DNA from: Thermococcus sp.
Lineage (GTDB): Archaea > Methanobacteriota_B > Thermococci > Thermococcales > Thermococcaceae
Reading direction: 5' to 3'
NCBI RefSeq assembly: GCF_027052235.1
Contig: NZ_JALUFF010000013.1
Span: forward strand, 1-59,366
Length of the DNA: 59,366 bases
Position numbers and translations under genes: made by a program. Numbering within the stretch: the stretch's first letter is position 1; every line of letters begins with the position of its first letter. The notes under the pieces are model-generated. The model searched no databases. It was not told where the DNA came from and saw only the letters and a program-made list of their open reading frames with translations. Below are positions 31,954-37,272 of this stretch, in pieces.

Positions 31954-32010
31954 AGTATTATACCCTCCGGGAGGAGGGAAATCTATAAATACCCGGAGGG
32001 AGGAGGGAAA
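31954..32010 (+). repeat. leader/promoter repeat, copy 1 (57 bp, identical to copy 2)
   Basis: A 57-base element identical to 33211-33267. It begins AGTATTATACCCTCC, contains the palindrome-like CCCTCCGGGAGGAGGG, a clear TATA box (CTATAAATACC) and then a second CGGAGGGAGGAGGGAAA. The 13-mer GGGAGGAGGGAAA occurs twice within it, 28 bases apart. The downstream gene should start at the very end, but here the ATG found in the other copies reads ACG. Confidence 0.9.
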
Positions 32011-32018
32011 CGGGAACA

Positions 32019-32375
32019 TTGGAGATTGTAGGAGGTACTATCTTGCTTCTATCAAGCTTTATGGGGCTTCTTGAACCGGTTAAATGGTTCAAAAATCCAA
32101 AATTTGGTAAATTGGGAGTAGTGGATCAGATAAAAGAATCCACAATCATCGCAATTGGCATTGTGTTGGGCGAAATGATTTCATTCTTTGATCCTGAGGA
32201 AAATATACCGATCTGGATGTTTGCCGTGTCTTCATTAGCATTCGCATTCACATTAACTTCTTTAGTGATAAACTACAGCCGCCTCAAGCGCTTCGAGCAG
32301 GAGGAAATGCTCGAAAAGCTCGCCGAGAAGCTCGGAGAGTCAATGGCAAAGGGACTGAAGGGAGCGAAGGACTAA
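32019..32375 (+). CDS. small membrane protein of the leader-repeat family (degraded start)
   Basis: About 118 residues read from TTG 32019. Three membrane segments are visible (GGTILLLSSFMGLLEPV; TIIAIGIVLGEMISFF; MFAVSSLAFAFTLTSLVI), then a charged, helical tail rich in Lys and Glu (EEMLEKLAEKLGESMAKGLK). The first two-thirds are AT-rich with untypical codons; the tail is GC-rich and host-like. By comparison with 33267 and 35489, translation should start at 32010, but that codon is ACG. TTG three codons later is the nearest usable start. Function unknown; the family travels with TA modules here. Confidence 0.6.
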   Translation: MEIVGGTILLLSSFMGLLEPVKWFKNPKFGKLGVVDQIKESTIIAIGIVLGEMISFFDPEENIPIWMFAVSSLAFAFTLTSLVINYSRLKRFEQEEMLEKLAEKLGESMAKGLKGAKD

Positions 32376-33210: not shown

Positions 33211-33267
33211 AGTATTATACCCTCCGGGAGGAGGGAAATCTATAAATACCCGGAGGGAGGAGGGAAA
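33211..33267 (+). repeat. leader/promoter repeat, copy 2 (57 bp, identical to copy 1)
   Basis: Identical over 57 bases to 31954-32010. It forms the plus-strand half of a divergent promoter: the minus-strand TATA (33191-33199) serves the HEPN/MNT pair, and CTATAAATACC (33239-33249) serves the membrane protein that starts at its last base. The GGAGGGAGGAGGG block serves as an unusually strong, closely spaced ribosome binding site. Confidence 0.92.
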
Positions 33268-33620
33268 TGGATCTGGGAACTTTTCTCGTGTTAGTCTCTT
33301 TGGCCATTGGAGCCGGTTTACTGATGTTGAGTGATGCAATAGAACCATGGAACGAAAATGATATCGAACAGATACAAAAAGCCTACAACAATGCTCTAAC
33401 TGGCATGTTGCTCTCATTTTTCATCGCTCAACCCCTGGCAATATACTCCGTAGTTTTAGGAATTGGACTGGGATGGTTTGCGGAAATATTTGCAATAATG
33501 GCCACAATAGATTTTCTATTCAAGTGGAGAAAATACAAAAGCATATACCAAAGGCTCCTCCTCCAAGAAGCAATCGCCAGGGGCGTCGAAATCGGCATGA
33601 AGAAGGCGAAAGAAGCCTAA
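33267..33620 (+). CDS. small membrane protein of the leader-repeat family (intact)
   Basis: A 117-residue protein with three membrane segments (GTFLVLVSLAIGAGLLMLSDAI; ALTGMLLSFFIAQPLAIY; AEIFAIMATIDFLF) and a basic helical tail (LLLQEAIARGVEIGMKKAKE). The ATG directly follows the repeat element with a GGAGG block two to six bases before it. The AT-rich membrane part contrasts with the GC-rich tail. It shares layout but little sequence with the product at 32019. Divergent from a HEPN/MNT pair. Function unknown; candidates are a membrane effector or a surface-localised partner of the TA module. Confidence 0.72.
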   Translation: MDLGTFLVLVSLAIGAGLLMLSDAIEPWNENDIEQIQKAYNNALTGMLLSFFIAQPLAIYSVVLGIGLGWFAEIFAIMATIDFLFKWRKYKSIYQRLLLQEAIARGVEIGMKKAKEA

Positions 33621-34700: not shown

Positions 34701-34732
34701 GATTGGTGTTGGGATATTTAATCCCTTCGTCC

Positions 34733-34760
34733 CCAAGTATTATTTTCTCTGGAGAGGAAT
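34733..34760 (+). repeat. decayed copy of the leader/promoter repeat
   Basis: CCAAGTATTAT followed by TTTCTCTGGAGAGGAAT aligns with the start of copies 1-3 (CCAAGTATTATACCCTCCGG...), with several substitutions. The shared upstream block (ATATTTAATCCCTTCG here; GTATTTAACNCCTTCG in copies 2 and 3) is preserved and gives the minus-strand TATA of the UPF0175 gene. No membrane-protein gene remains downstream: the first ATG opens only three codons. Confidence 0.55.
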
Positions 34761-34833
34761 AGCGCGGAGCTCATGAAAACTTGAGAAATCATTAGCTTTG
34801 GAATATCTCGGATTTTGCTAGCAATGATCTTGT

Positions 34834-35238
34834 TTAACCTTTCTTGTCAACTTTTTCAAAGGGGTTGTATATCCTAATTCCTTCAACCTTTTCGAAGTCC
34901 TTAACGTTCCTCGTCACCAGCGTGAGGTTGTGTAGGAGTGCCGTAGCCGCTATAACCGCGTGGGGGAGCTTTATGATAACCTTTCTCCTGAGTTCGATGG
35001 CAATATCTGCTATCTCGTCGGTGAGAGGTATGACGTGCGCGAAGCTTATGAACTCCTTTGACTTCTTAAAGCCCTCTGGGGTATGCCCTCTCCAGCCGAG
35101 AAACTCTATTTTCGTGATTATGGAGACGTTGAAGCTTTTCCTCAGGATTTCCTCCACTTTGGGAAGCTCCTCCTCCGGAATTGCGTCCGCGAGGTAATAG
35201 ATGAGAATGTTTGTGTCGATCAGAAATCCCTCTCCCAT
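34834..35238 (-). CDS. vapC: PIN-domain toxin VapC
   Basis: A 134-residue PIN ribonuclease: GFLIDTNILIYYLADAIPEE carries the first Asp, IITKIEFLGW the Glu, KLPHAVIAATALLHNLTLVT the C-terminal active-site segment (His where Asp is commoner: LPHAVIAA) and RNVKDFEKV a final Asp. Overlaps the upstream antitoxin by 19 bases. The LPHA variant in place of LPDA is worth noting, because that Asp helps bind the metal in many VapCs. Confidence 0.87.
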   Translation of the reverse strand: MGEGFLIDTNILIYYLADAIPEEELPKVEEILRKSFNVSIITKIEFLGWRGHTPEGFKKSKEFISFAHVIPLTDEIADIAIELRRKVIIKLPHAVIAATALLHNLTLVTRNVKDFEKVEGIRIYNPFEKVDKKG

Positions 35239-35408
35239 TCCTTCCTCAGCTCCCTGAGGCTTTTCTCAAGGTCTTTTCTGCCCCTGTAAATTCCCCTGTA
35301 CTTTGATGGCTCGAAGAACTCAGCTTTTATCCTCTCCCAGAGTTCTGGAGGAATTATGACACCCTTAACCTTCCCGTGCTCGTCGTAGATGTACTCAATC
35401 CCTTCCAT
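35220..35408 (-). CDS. vapB: VapB-type antitoxin
   Basis: A 62-residue protein: MEGIEYIYDEHGKVKGVIIP is the two-stranded Phd/VapB-like start found in archaeal antitoxins (DexGxxxGVxIP), followed by PELWERIKAEF and a charged C-terminal tail (RKDLEKSLRELRKEWERDF). Start ATG 35408 with GGTGTGAGC; a GTG two codons before lies in that site. Its minus-strand TATA (TTAAATACG, about 35440-35448) is part of the divergent promoter containing repeat copy 3. Confidence 0.8.
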   Translation of the reverse strand: MEGIEYIYDEHGKVKGVIIPPELWERIKAEFFEPSKYRGIYRGRKDLEKSLRELRKEWERDF

Positions 35409-35460
35409 GCTCACACCAGGGGGTGGTTTCGTCCTCCACGTATTTAACCCCTTCGCCTCC

Positions 35461-35490
35461 AGATATTATACCCTCCGGGAGGAGGGAAAT
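35461..35490 (+). repeat. leader/promoter repeat, copy 3 (shortened)
   Basis: Reads AGATATTATACCCTCCGGGA then GGAGGGAAAT. It matches the first half of copies 1 and 2 but lacks the next 29 bases, including the CTATAAATACC box. The missing piece lies exactly between the two GGGAGGAGGGAAA direct repeats of the full-length copies, so it looks like a deletion by recombination between them. The upstream ATTATACCC might still serve as a weak TATA. Confidence 0.85.
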
Positions 35491-36076
35491 GGGAAGCAGT
35501 GTAATTGAACTTGAGAAAAAATTGAATGCAGGTAGTGACATAGGCTTTATGGTCTTGATAATAATCGGGATTTTTGTGCTATTGTTTCTCCAGTTGCTTG
35601 CGTTTGATTTGCGCAACATCTCTCTCATGGGATAGTTGGCAATTTTTACAGGCTGGATTGTACTTCTTGCAGGCCCCATGTCGTTAATATACTCAGCGTA
35701 TAAAGTCCAAGCTGACCCTCAGGAGTTCGTGGATGCCTATAAGAGGGACTACCCACGGGAGAAGGAAATTGAGATTCTTGAACTAGCTTACAAAAAGGCT
35801 CATGAATATCAGAATGAAGCATTTAAAGATGCTCTATCCACGTGGTTGGGCTTCGGCTTTTATCTTGGACTCATTGAGATAGGTCTGTCCTCTGGTGGTT
35901 TGATAATAAAGAACGGGGCATATTTTTGGACAGTTTTCAGCATAAGCTCGATAGTATCTTTCATTGGGTTTATCCTGACAATCATCTCATACCTCCACAA
36001 GCGCTCCATTGAAAAGGCCCTCTTCGCCATCCAGCTCAAGAAGACCGACAAGACCGAGCTCTCAATAAAGCTCTGA
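35489..36076 (+). pseudogene. leader-repeat membrane protein interrupted by an in-frame TAG
   Basis: ATG 35489 follows the repeat and opens MGSSVIELEKKLNAGSDIG, then a membrane segment (FMVLIIIGIFVLLFLQLLAF). TAG at 35633-35635 stops the frame, which then continues open in the same phase to 36076: LAIFTGWIVLLAGPMSLIYS (membrane), an acidic middle (EKEIEILELAYKKAHEYQ), two more membrane segments (LGFGFYLGLIEIGLS; FSISSIVSFIGFILTIIS) and a basic tail (HKRSIEKALFAIQLKKTDK). With one sense codon in place of TAG it would give about 195 residues and four membrane spans. It shares architecture and GC mosaic with 32019 and 33267. A recent nonsense mutation or a sequencing error are the simplest explanations. 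Confidence 0.72.
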
Positions 36077-36078
36077 TT

Positions 36079-37200
36079 TTATCCCTTTATCAAACTCCTC
36101 CCCACCATGTTGGCAGGCTTATCCACGCCAAAGAAATCCAGTATCGTCGGAGCTATGTCCATGAGCGAGGCGTTTTCAAGGTTTGCGTTCTCAAAGCCCC
36201 AGAGGATGAGCGGGACCTTCACAACAGGCTCGTTGTTGGAACCGTGCATGCCCTTAACCCAGTGGCTCACACCTTTAATCCCCCTACACATCCTGTGGGA
36301 GCAGAACCAGTAGCCCGGTTTAGCTGAAACTATAAGCTCTCCGCTGTTGGGGCTGTTCAAATGGGGAAGTTCATCGCGGAAGAAAACGTCTTTAACGCCC
36401 GGCGCTTTCCTCAGAATCTCAAAGGCATCCTCAGCATCGCCGGGATTTCTCAGGTAAACGTGAACACCCCCACCCGAGGAGACCCTCTTAACCCCTATCC
36501 CGCTATCCATGAGGAGCTCCCTGAGGTTCACCCACGTGTGCACTTCCTCCTGTCCATGGTCGGCGAAGATTACGAAGGCGTACTCGTCCTTAAGGCGCTC
36601 CCAGAGGGTTCTAACGGCGGCATCGACGGTTTCCACCGCTTTGAGCGCGCCCTCGCTCAGGGGACCGTGGTCGTGGCTCATGCCGTCTATCGAGGCGAAG
36701 TGGACAAGGAGTAAGTCGGGTTTGCATTCCTCGTAGATGTATAGGGCAGAATTCAAGACCCATACATCTTTCCTCCAGTCCCTCCCGTGTTTTCTATAAA
36801 GCTCGTTGCTCGCAAAGAAGGGCGGGAAAATCCTCACGTCCGTTCCGCTGAAGGGTGGCATGGTGTAGCCGCTGACGGAACCAGTCTTGATACCTCTCCC
36901 CCTGAGAATATCAACGATTGTTGGGGCTTTAATGACCCTGTGGGGATTGAAAGCTATTTCGTAGTCGTAGAAGTTAATCTTCCTGTCGGTCAGTCTGTCA
37001 TAGTAGCCGTTTTCCACAACTCCATGGTCTTTGGGCCATACCCCTGTCATAACGCTCGTGTGAACGAGGTCGGTAAGGGTTGGGAAGATTGAGTCAACTA
37101 CCGTGAAATCGCCGTTTTCTGCCAGCTCGCTCAGGAAGGGCATGTATTTGAGGTTGTAAATTCCGTTCCCGTCGAGGCTTATGAGGGCCAGCTTTTTCAT
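36079..37200 (-). CDS. type I phosphodiesterase/nucleotide pyrophosphatase (alkaline phosphatase superfamily)
   Basis: A 373-residue protein: LALISLDGNGIYNL provides the first metal-binding Asp, FPTLTDLVHTSVMTGVWPKD the threonine nucleophile (TLT) region, HFASIDGMSHDHGP an Asp/His pair, and VIFADHGQEE the last Asp-His pair. Related archaeal proteins hydrolyse phosphodiesters or act on nucleotide-linked compounds; the substrate is not predictable. The start is ATG 37200 after GGTGATCGAA; a GTG upstream is part of that site. It faces the end of the TAG-broken membrane gene. Confidence 0.88.
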   Translation of the reverse strand: MKKLALISLDGNGIYNLKYMPFLSELAENGDFTVVDSIFPTLTDLVHTSVMTGVWPKDHGVVENGYYDRLTDRKINFYDYEIAFNPHRVIKAPTIVDILRGRGIKTGSVSGYTMPPFSGTDVRIFPPFFASNELYRKHGRDWRKDVWVLNSALYIYEECKPDLLLVHFASIDGMSHDHGPLSEGALKAVETVDAAVRTLWERLKDEYAFVIFADHGQEEVHTWVNLRELLMDSGIGVKRVSSGGGVHVYLRNPGDAEDAFEILRKAPGVKDVFFRDELPHLNSPNSGELIVSAKPGYWFCSHRMCRGIKGVSHWVKGMHGSNNEPVVKVPLILWGFENANLENASLMDIAPTILDFFGVDKPANMVGRSLIKG

Positions 37201-37272
37201 TTCGATCACCGGTGTCAGTCTGACGTGCAGTCATCACAATTCAGTGGGATGGAGTGATCGTCATCCACCGCC

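Follow-up and report, generated by a model that had tools for sequence, protein, structure and literature searches.

What does a single in-frame TAG tell us about a Thermococcus membrane-protein gene that is otherwise open from start to end, and about the locus in which the gene lies? The window, that is, the whole stretch of DNA analysed (59,366 nucleotides), is contig C13 of a draft genome of 1,889,140 bases in 86 contigs that is 95.5% complete. When 35489-36076 is translated across the TAG, 195 positions precede the final stop: the ATG at 35489 opens a run of 48 residues, the TAG is codon 49 (35633-35635), and 146 residues follow before the stop. The front of the gene on the forward strand (35489..35635, TAG included) encodes one hydrophobic segment by hydropathy, in a frame that the homologues match, and the remainder (35636..36076, forward strand) encodes 146 codons with more hydrophobic segments and a conserved basic tail, as judged from translation and homology. 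The sequence-only reading had proposed a membrane gene with an in-frame TAG, 146 open codons after it and further membrane segments, and this description is borne out by the translation, by the homology across the TAG and by the hydrophobic segments in the second part. It had also stated that the basic tail matches the family. That is correct for the true homologues elsewhere, as seen in the alignment, but not for the other two genes of the window behind the same leader, which have different tails and belong to different families. The gene under study is a member of sequence family 0, while 32019-32375 belongs to family 3 and 33267-33620 to family 1; the three genes have the leader in common, not the protein.

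The homologues treat the two parts as one protein. The whole frame (positions 1-195, across the TAG) is 57% identical to an intact gene in genome G005 (E 1.4e-65); another intact full-length homologue, in G032, shows 56% identity, and the closest copy, L030, shows 86%. In a profile search the homologue family spans the frame with a single internal stop, the TAG. With the read-through protein as query, 17 of 61 genomes (its own and 60 relatives) gave a match at E 0.001, all of them within the genus. The profile search covered 115 genomes of the class and gave a match in 29 of them at E 1e-5; these 29 fall into 3 of the 12 genera, all within one taxonomic family. The gene resembles a pseudogene in that a disabling lesion lies in a frame with intact homologues.

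No homologue aligned over the TAG codon has a stop there. The nearest copy (L030 in G077, MAG NZ_JALTCZ010000085.1) has a sense codon at this site, and it is off frame near both ends through two one-base indels, which could be assembly errors because the coverage of this MAG is only 4.9x. In G062, read by eye, the divergent PIN-domain pair is kept and is followed by a leader scrap fused to a frameshifted tail. This remnant was absent from the tblastn matches; the last 105 bases of the tail show 78-84% identity to five other tails, and the phosphodiesterase neighbour is 96% identical to that of the window. Three kinds of damage are therefore seen in three related genomes, namely the TAG, the indels of G077 and the scrap of G062. 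A sister strain that shares the TAG and conserves the protein after it would have implied two genes; neither relative is of this kind, since G077 has the sense codon and G062 lacks the region. The earlier proposal that one point mutation would restore 195 residues is too simple, since two of the three bases of the TAG codon differ from those of the nearest copy, and the codon sits in a cluster of four differences in eight bases.

Comparison with the G077 copy also bears on the age of the break. Over the whole gene dS is about 0.14 and dN 0.03, whereas dS of the adjacent phosphodiesterase is about 1.16, which indicates that the two gene copies diverged much later than the species did. The leader and front differ at 17 of 469 sites and the tail-coding part (35933..36076, forward strand) at 19 of 144 (Fisher p = 1.3e-4, with the boundary at 35933 set after inspection of the data). 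Because the low divergence spans the leader and the front and ends at the tail, leader and front were probably exchanged as one block, with the tail-coding part as its likely 3' edge. The differences comprise 16 synonymous and 14 non-synonymous changes over 193 codons (p = 2e-4 against neutrality), and 6 and 7, respectively, in the front part alone, a weak synonymous excess (p = 0.044). Such a synonymous lean is as expected for a recent break. With intact homologues elsewhere, it agrees with the suggestion of recent loss made from the sequence, and the TAG is probably a real, recent and ordinary gene loss.

Phase variation by point mutation, also suggested at first, is unlikely: neither a repeat nor a homopolymer lies at the TAG, no tandem repeat was found at 35633-35635 by inspection or in the tandem-repeat listing, and internal stops in the family are of mixed types. 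Within the best alignments we found 8 TAG, 4 TAA and 4 TGA at different codons over 11 copies. With stops so mixed in type and so scattered along the gene, the TAG is just another of many lesions and not a recoding signal. That programmed readthrough or recoding of the TAG yields the 195-residue protein is scarcely credible, even though three family members are open but for one TAG (the gene of the window and L114 and L025 of G001), because these TAGs are scattered (codons 49, 26 and 97), other copies are broken through TAA, TGA or frameshifts, and PylS has no match in the genome. Pyrrolysine recoding was rejected on this absence, in a genome that is 95.5% complete. As a separate observation, L114 (G001 C1:387016-387606) stands behind a two-unit leader and is interrupted by nothing but the TAG at codon 26; apart from this, it shares 94% identity with a copy in G012 that is open.

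A sequencing or assembly error in an intact gene would need only a very small mistake, the genome is known from a single assembly in 86 contigs, and the sequence after the TAG still leans synonymous. We nevertheless judge such an error improbable: two positions of the TAG codon differ from the nearest copy, within the cluster of four differences in eight bases; the leader is of the single-unit type that is associated with broken genes (see below); of the 18 genes that stand behind a leader at this locus, 9, the present one included, are shorter than 100 aa; and alignments with one TAG recur on a single 2.0-Mb contig of G001, which carries both L114 and L025. It is very unlikely that two real genes encode membrane proteins of 48 and 146 residues. 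A TTG directly follows the TAG and the downstream ORF is open, and for this reason the ORF finder reports 35636-36076 separately. However, the homologues are continuous as one protein, no aligned relative shares the split, and no ribosome-binding sequence was visible before the TTG at 35636 in the printed sequence of the window.

The leader unit TATTATACCCTCCGGGAGGAGGGAAAT(G) lies directly upstream of the ATG of the broken gene. Here it has the single, or collapsed, form H (35464..35490, forward strand), which abuts the start codon, repeats the leaders at 31956 and 33213 exactly and has no 29-bp T unit behind it. The window holds three copies of the unit, and a further copy, with two mismatches, lies elsewhere in the genome. 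Across the genus the unit is present in 39 of 61 genomes; the reversed pattern, used as a control, gave no match. Tandem units of 29 bp, (C)TATAAATACCCGGAGGGAGGAGGGAAAT, often follow 3' of the first unit; within the taxonomic family they occur in 33 of 94 genomes, from 4 of the 6 genera. The fetched stretches contained 106 distinct leaders: 45 H, 56 HT, 3 HTT, 1 HTTTT and 1 TTTT. About four 29-bp copies stand at each of two contig ends of G098 (L152 and L153, on C16 and C21), and the HTTTT and TTTT forms of this genome are probably one longer array that broke the assembly and was split over the two ends. The arms of the first unit covary (63 CCCTCC/GGAGGG, 23 CCCTTC/GAAGGG and 5 mixes of both, n = 105), which fits an RNA hairpin and a DNA operator alike, and the second unit has the arm variant of the first in 52 of 60 cases. 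Upstream of the leaders, the search for a conserved promoter gave nothing strong besides a C-rich stretch adjoining the leader; a TATTTAA-type box is present in the upstream flanks of 24 of 59 HT-type and 21 of 45 H leaders. The Rfam search gave seven matches, all under the gathering scores, and one locus was returned by the scan of genome contigs. A viral origin of the leader was rejected, as the exact unit had no match in viral contigs.

Single-unit leaders usually front broken genes. We scored a gene as open when an ATG-started ORF of at least 100 aa stood behind the leader, and counted 101 of the 106 leaders (L014, L058, L090, one L141 leader and L152 had too little 3' sequence). Such an ORF was present behind 47 of 60 multi-unit and 12 of 41 single-unit leaders (Fisher p = 1.3e-6; this and the following p values are optimistic because related leaders and copies were entered as independent). 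Permutation of unit number against open ORF within protein families gave p = 5e-5. The association was also seen without leaders found solely via the T-unit pattern, a possible bias (42/51 versus 12/41, p = 4.7e-7), among leaders with family-matching downstream DNA only (47/59 versus 12/35, p = 1.9e-5), and on contigs longer than 1 Mb, from genomes hand-picked by size of contigs (21/24 versus 2/14, p = 1.2e-5, with 3 of 24 multi-unit leaders lacking a 100-aa ORF). Seven counted leaders (6 H, 1 HT) had no family match and no 100-aa ORF, and they may include chance hits; one of the seven, L077, is probably a chance match within another gene. A cut-off of 100 aa is a rough measure: L117 and L125 were scored open although each has a frameshift near its end, and six leaders scored not open have a nearby alternative-start ORF of at least 100 aa. 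At one locus, a pair differing by one unit (G013, HT, and G075, H) is 95% identical upstream and 92% identical downstream.

These data may be explained as follows. TATTATA in the first unit of a full leader would be a TATA box, and in a two-unit leader transcription would start at the beginning of the second unit, so that the 29-bp second unit would supply a 5' UTR of about 25 nt with the ribosome-binding site GGAGG. For T. kodakarensis, the accessible text of one report gives a median of 23 bp between TATA box and start site, a median 5' UTR of 16 nt, the ribosome-binding consensus GGDGRD in about half of mRNAs, and about 14% leaderless mRNAs (PMC4247193); the spacing, the UTR median and the consensus fit a start in the second unit. 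Counting against the TATA reading, the first unit has no A-rich BRE before the TATA-like box, which is expected upstream of a TATA box according to the accessible text of another report (PMC5316973). Recombination between repeats would delete 29-bp units, and in the resulting single-unit leader the transcription start would land at or within the start codon. Collapse to one unit would thereby weaken or silence expression, an effect that we infer from the sequence, and the gene would then decay by the first lesion to arrive, here the TAG. We therefore consider it probable that the gene in the window is a recently inactivated, exchangeable Thermococcus membrane-protein gene behind a collapsed shared leader, in which recombination-driven collapse was followed by decay.

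The order of events could also be the reverse, with decay first and the leader relaxed afterwards. Leader copy number would then be a neutral by-product: dead genes lose repeats, and repeats do not set expression. Some single-unit genes are indeed open, and at least one break seems to predate collapse, since L061 (HT) and L089 (H) appear to have an early break in common. The 12 of 41 single-unit leaders that still front an ORF of at least 100 aa mean that collapse is not an immediate knock-out, although at least two of these 12 genes (L117 and L125) are those frameshifted near the end. Likewise, the copies in the window and in G077 are both single-unit, yet their fronts show the weak synonymous excess noted above, which means either function after collapse or two separate collapses. 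We regard a neutral by-product as rather unlikely, however, because the gene behind a multi-unit leader is open in most cases, on contigs longer than 1 Mb as well. The second unit thus seems to be maintained by selection for as long as the gene is in use.

The locus itself has a fixed right-hand neighbour, a core gene for a type I phosphodiesterase/nucleotide pyrophosphatase (36079..37209, reverse strand; PF01663, E 1.1e-51), which was matched in 60 of 61 genus genomes. We retrieved the region beside it from 59 of the 60 genomes (G026 was left out; some regions were short), and a leader was present in 18 of these 59. The genes behind 16 of the 18 leaders match four families: the 4-helix membrane family to which the broken gene belongs, a PH-like family and two short membrane families. 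At this locus an ORF of at least 100 aa stood behind 6 of 6 HT leaders and 3 of 12 H leaders (p = 0.009), where the HT gene of G012 was scored open, yet is frameshifted at its end. Among leader-borne genes, we counted 40 pairs in which the downstream DNA is at least 85% alike and the gene front is not alike at the DNA level; the thresholds of this count were loose, and some pairs have late matches or share a protein family with diverged DNA. Two pairs are the clearest. In G005 and G080 the 150 bases upstream are 97% identical, as are 655 bases that begin near the gene end, and the gene fronts show no DNA similarity. In G020 and G078 identity is 96% over 951 bases from base 268, and the upstream DNA is unlike. 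Gene fronts behind the leader thus look swapped between species, and recombination between species was found at a fixed locus, as in the VARTIG system discussed below.

A wider model can be offered as no more than a tentative possibility. The leader-borne genes may form a pool of interchangeable cassettes with a constant tandem-repeat leader and a constant tail, whose fronts would be swapped among species through recombination between the two constant parts. The copy number of the 29-bp unit would tune expression, each unit being the UTR for the promoter before it and the promoter for the unit after it; a single unit would be an off switch before gene death, and the broken gene would be just past collapse.

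Searches of Pfam, NCBIfam, PADLOC, PHROGs and PDB sequences gave no convincing family for the membrane proteins. No membrane family reached the curated cut-off in Pfam or NCBIfam; the PH-like family, named so here, had only a weak bPH_3 match (E 0.013), and PHROG matches were weak only (best E 1.4e-4). The single-sequence fold of the read-through protein was all-helical and poor (pLDDT 61.7, pTM 0.43). A virus or plasmid gene was rejected, since one family member (L122) had no match among phages and plasmids and the leader had none in viral contigs. The neighbourhood is toxin-antitoxin-like, with PIN, HEPN, nucleotidyltransferase, ParE-like and MazE-like genes. These surroundings, together with the hydrophobic segments and the rapid exchange, suggest, as a lead only, a role in conflict or self/non-self recognition.

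Phase-variable genes may have tandem repeats in their promoters. The leader is like these in that its tandem copy number differs between related genomes, and unlike them in that collapse, since it removes the T unit, can probably not be reversed. Another likeness is to the hypervariable modules VARTIG, for which conflict or self/non-self recognition has been proposed and which, in the accessible text of the report (PMC8416519), is likewise reported only from Thermococcales, with many small membrane proteins, fast turnover, pseudogene fragments and apparent interspecies exchange, also in situ at a fixed neighbour. In contrast, VARTIG is an operon with a large Ig-domain protein at its 5' end, whereas the genes described here are single and have a tandem-repeat leader in common; VARTIG varies at the C-terminus, whereas the cassettes vary in front and keep the tail constant; and the word "promoter" is absent from the main text of that report (PMC8416519). 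With CARDB as a stand-in for the Ig-domain protein (arCOG07710), 10 matches were found in the genome, on contigs C15, C27, C38, C61 and C81, and none on C13. The archaeal "dark matter" islands are similar in holding lineage-specific, fast-evolving small membrane proteins and defence genes, and differ in that the accessible text on them describes no shared promoter or leader unit (PMC4158269). The combination of a repeated leader, swapped fronts and a link between copy number and gene survival was not found in the accessible text of the literature searched, subscription papers being outside the search. The exchangeable cassette system with its tandem-repeat leader is the part worth follow-up, and the lone stop codon is ordinary. 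Thermococcus kodakarensis is genetically tractable, so tuning or silencing of a rapidly exchanged archaeal membrane protein by promoter repeats is directly testable. For the question raised by VARTIG, how Thermococcales loci recombine, a constant leader and a constant tail as homology arms would be a concrete model.

Other features of the window and other leader-borne genes deserve mention. The two-unit HT leader at 31956..32011 (forward strand) has ACG (32010-32012) where ATG is expected; its relative L140/L086 has ATG, which points to start-codon loss. The gene of family 3 behind it, a 118-aa membrane gene (32019..32375, forward strand), starts, as read here, at a TTG that keeps the frame of the lost ATG, and with this loss two of the three leader-borne genes of the window look damaged. 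The other two-unit HT leader (33213..33268, forward strand) fronts the open 117-aa membrane gene of family 1 (33267..33620, forward strand). The divergent toxin-antitoxin-like pair (34834..35414, reverse strand) consists of a PIN-domain protein (PF01850, E 1.5e-10) and a small upstream protein, which had no Pfam match and is a putative antitoxin by position. At 34730-34765 lies a diverged leader-like stretch (CAAGTATTATTTTCTCTGGAGAGGAA) with no recognised gene and with a counterpart, L189, in G062; it may be what is left of an earlier cassette. Leaders also front another family, of proteins of about 209 aa that look soluble, represented by L145 (G020 C16) and L151 (G000 C81:69186); the latter, a copy in the same genome as the window, has no ATG, GTG or TTG at the expected start. 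L149 (G032 C1:650712) is an HT leader whose gene encodes a protein of 195 aa that looks secreted, does not resemble the membrane families and has no Pfam match; the DNA downstream of L149 is shared with L148 (G027). In L105 (G023 C39:50559), as seen by eye, the leader is fused to the tail-like end of a membrane gene whose front is deleted.
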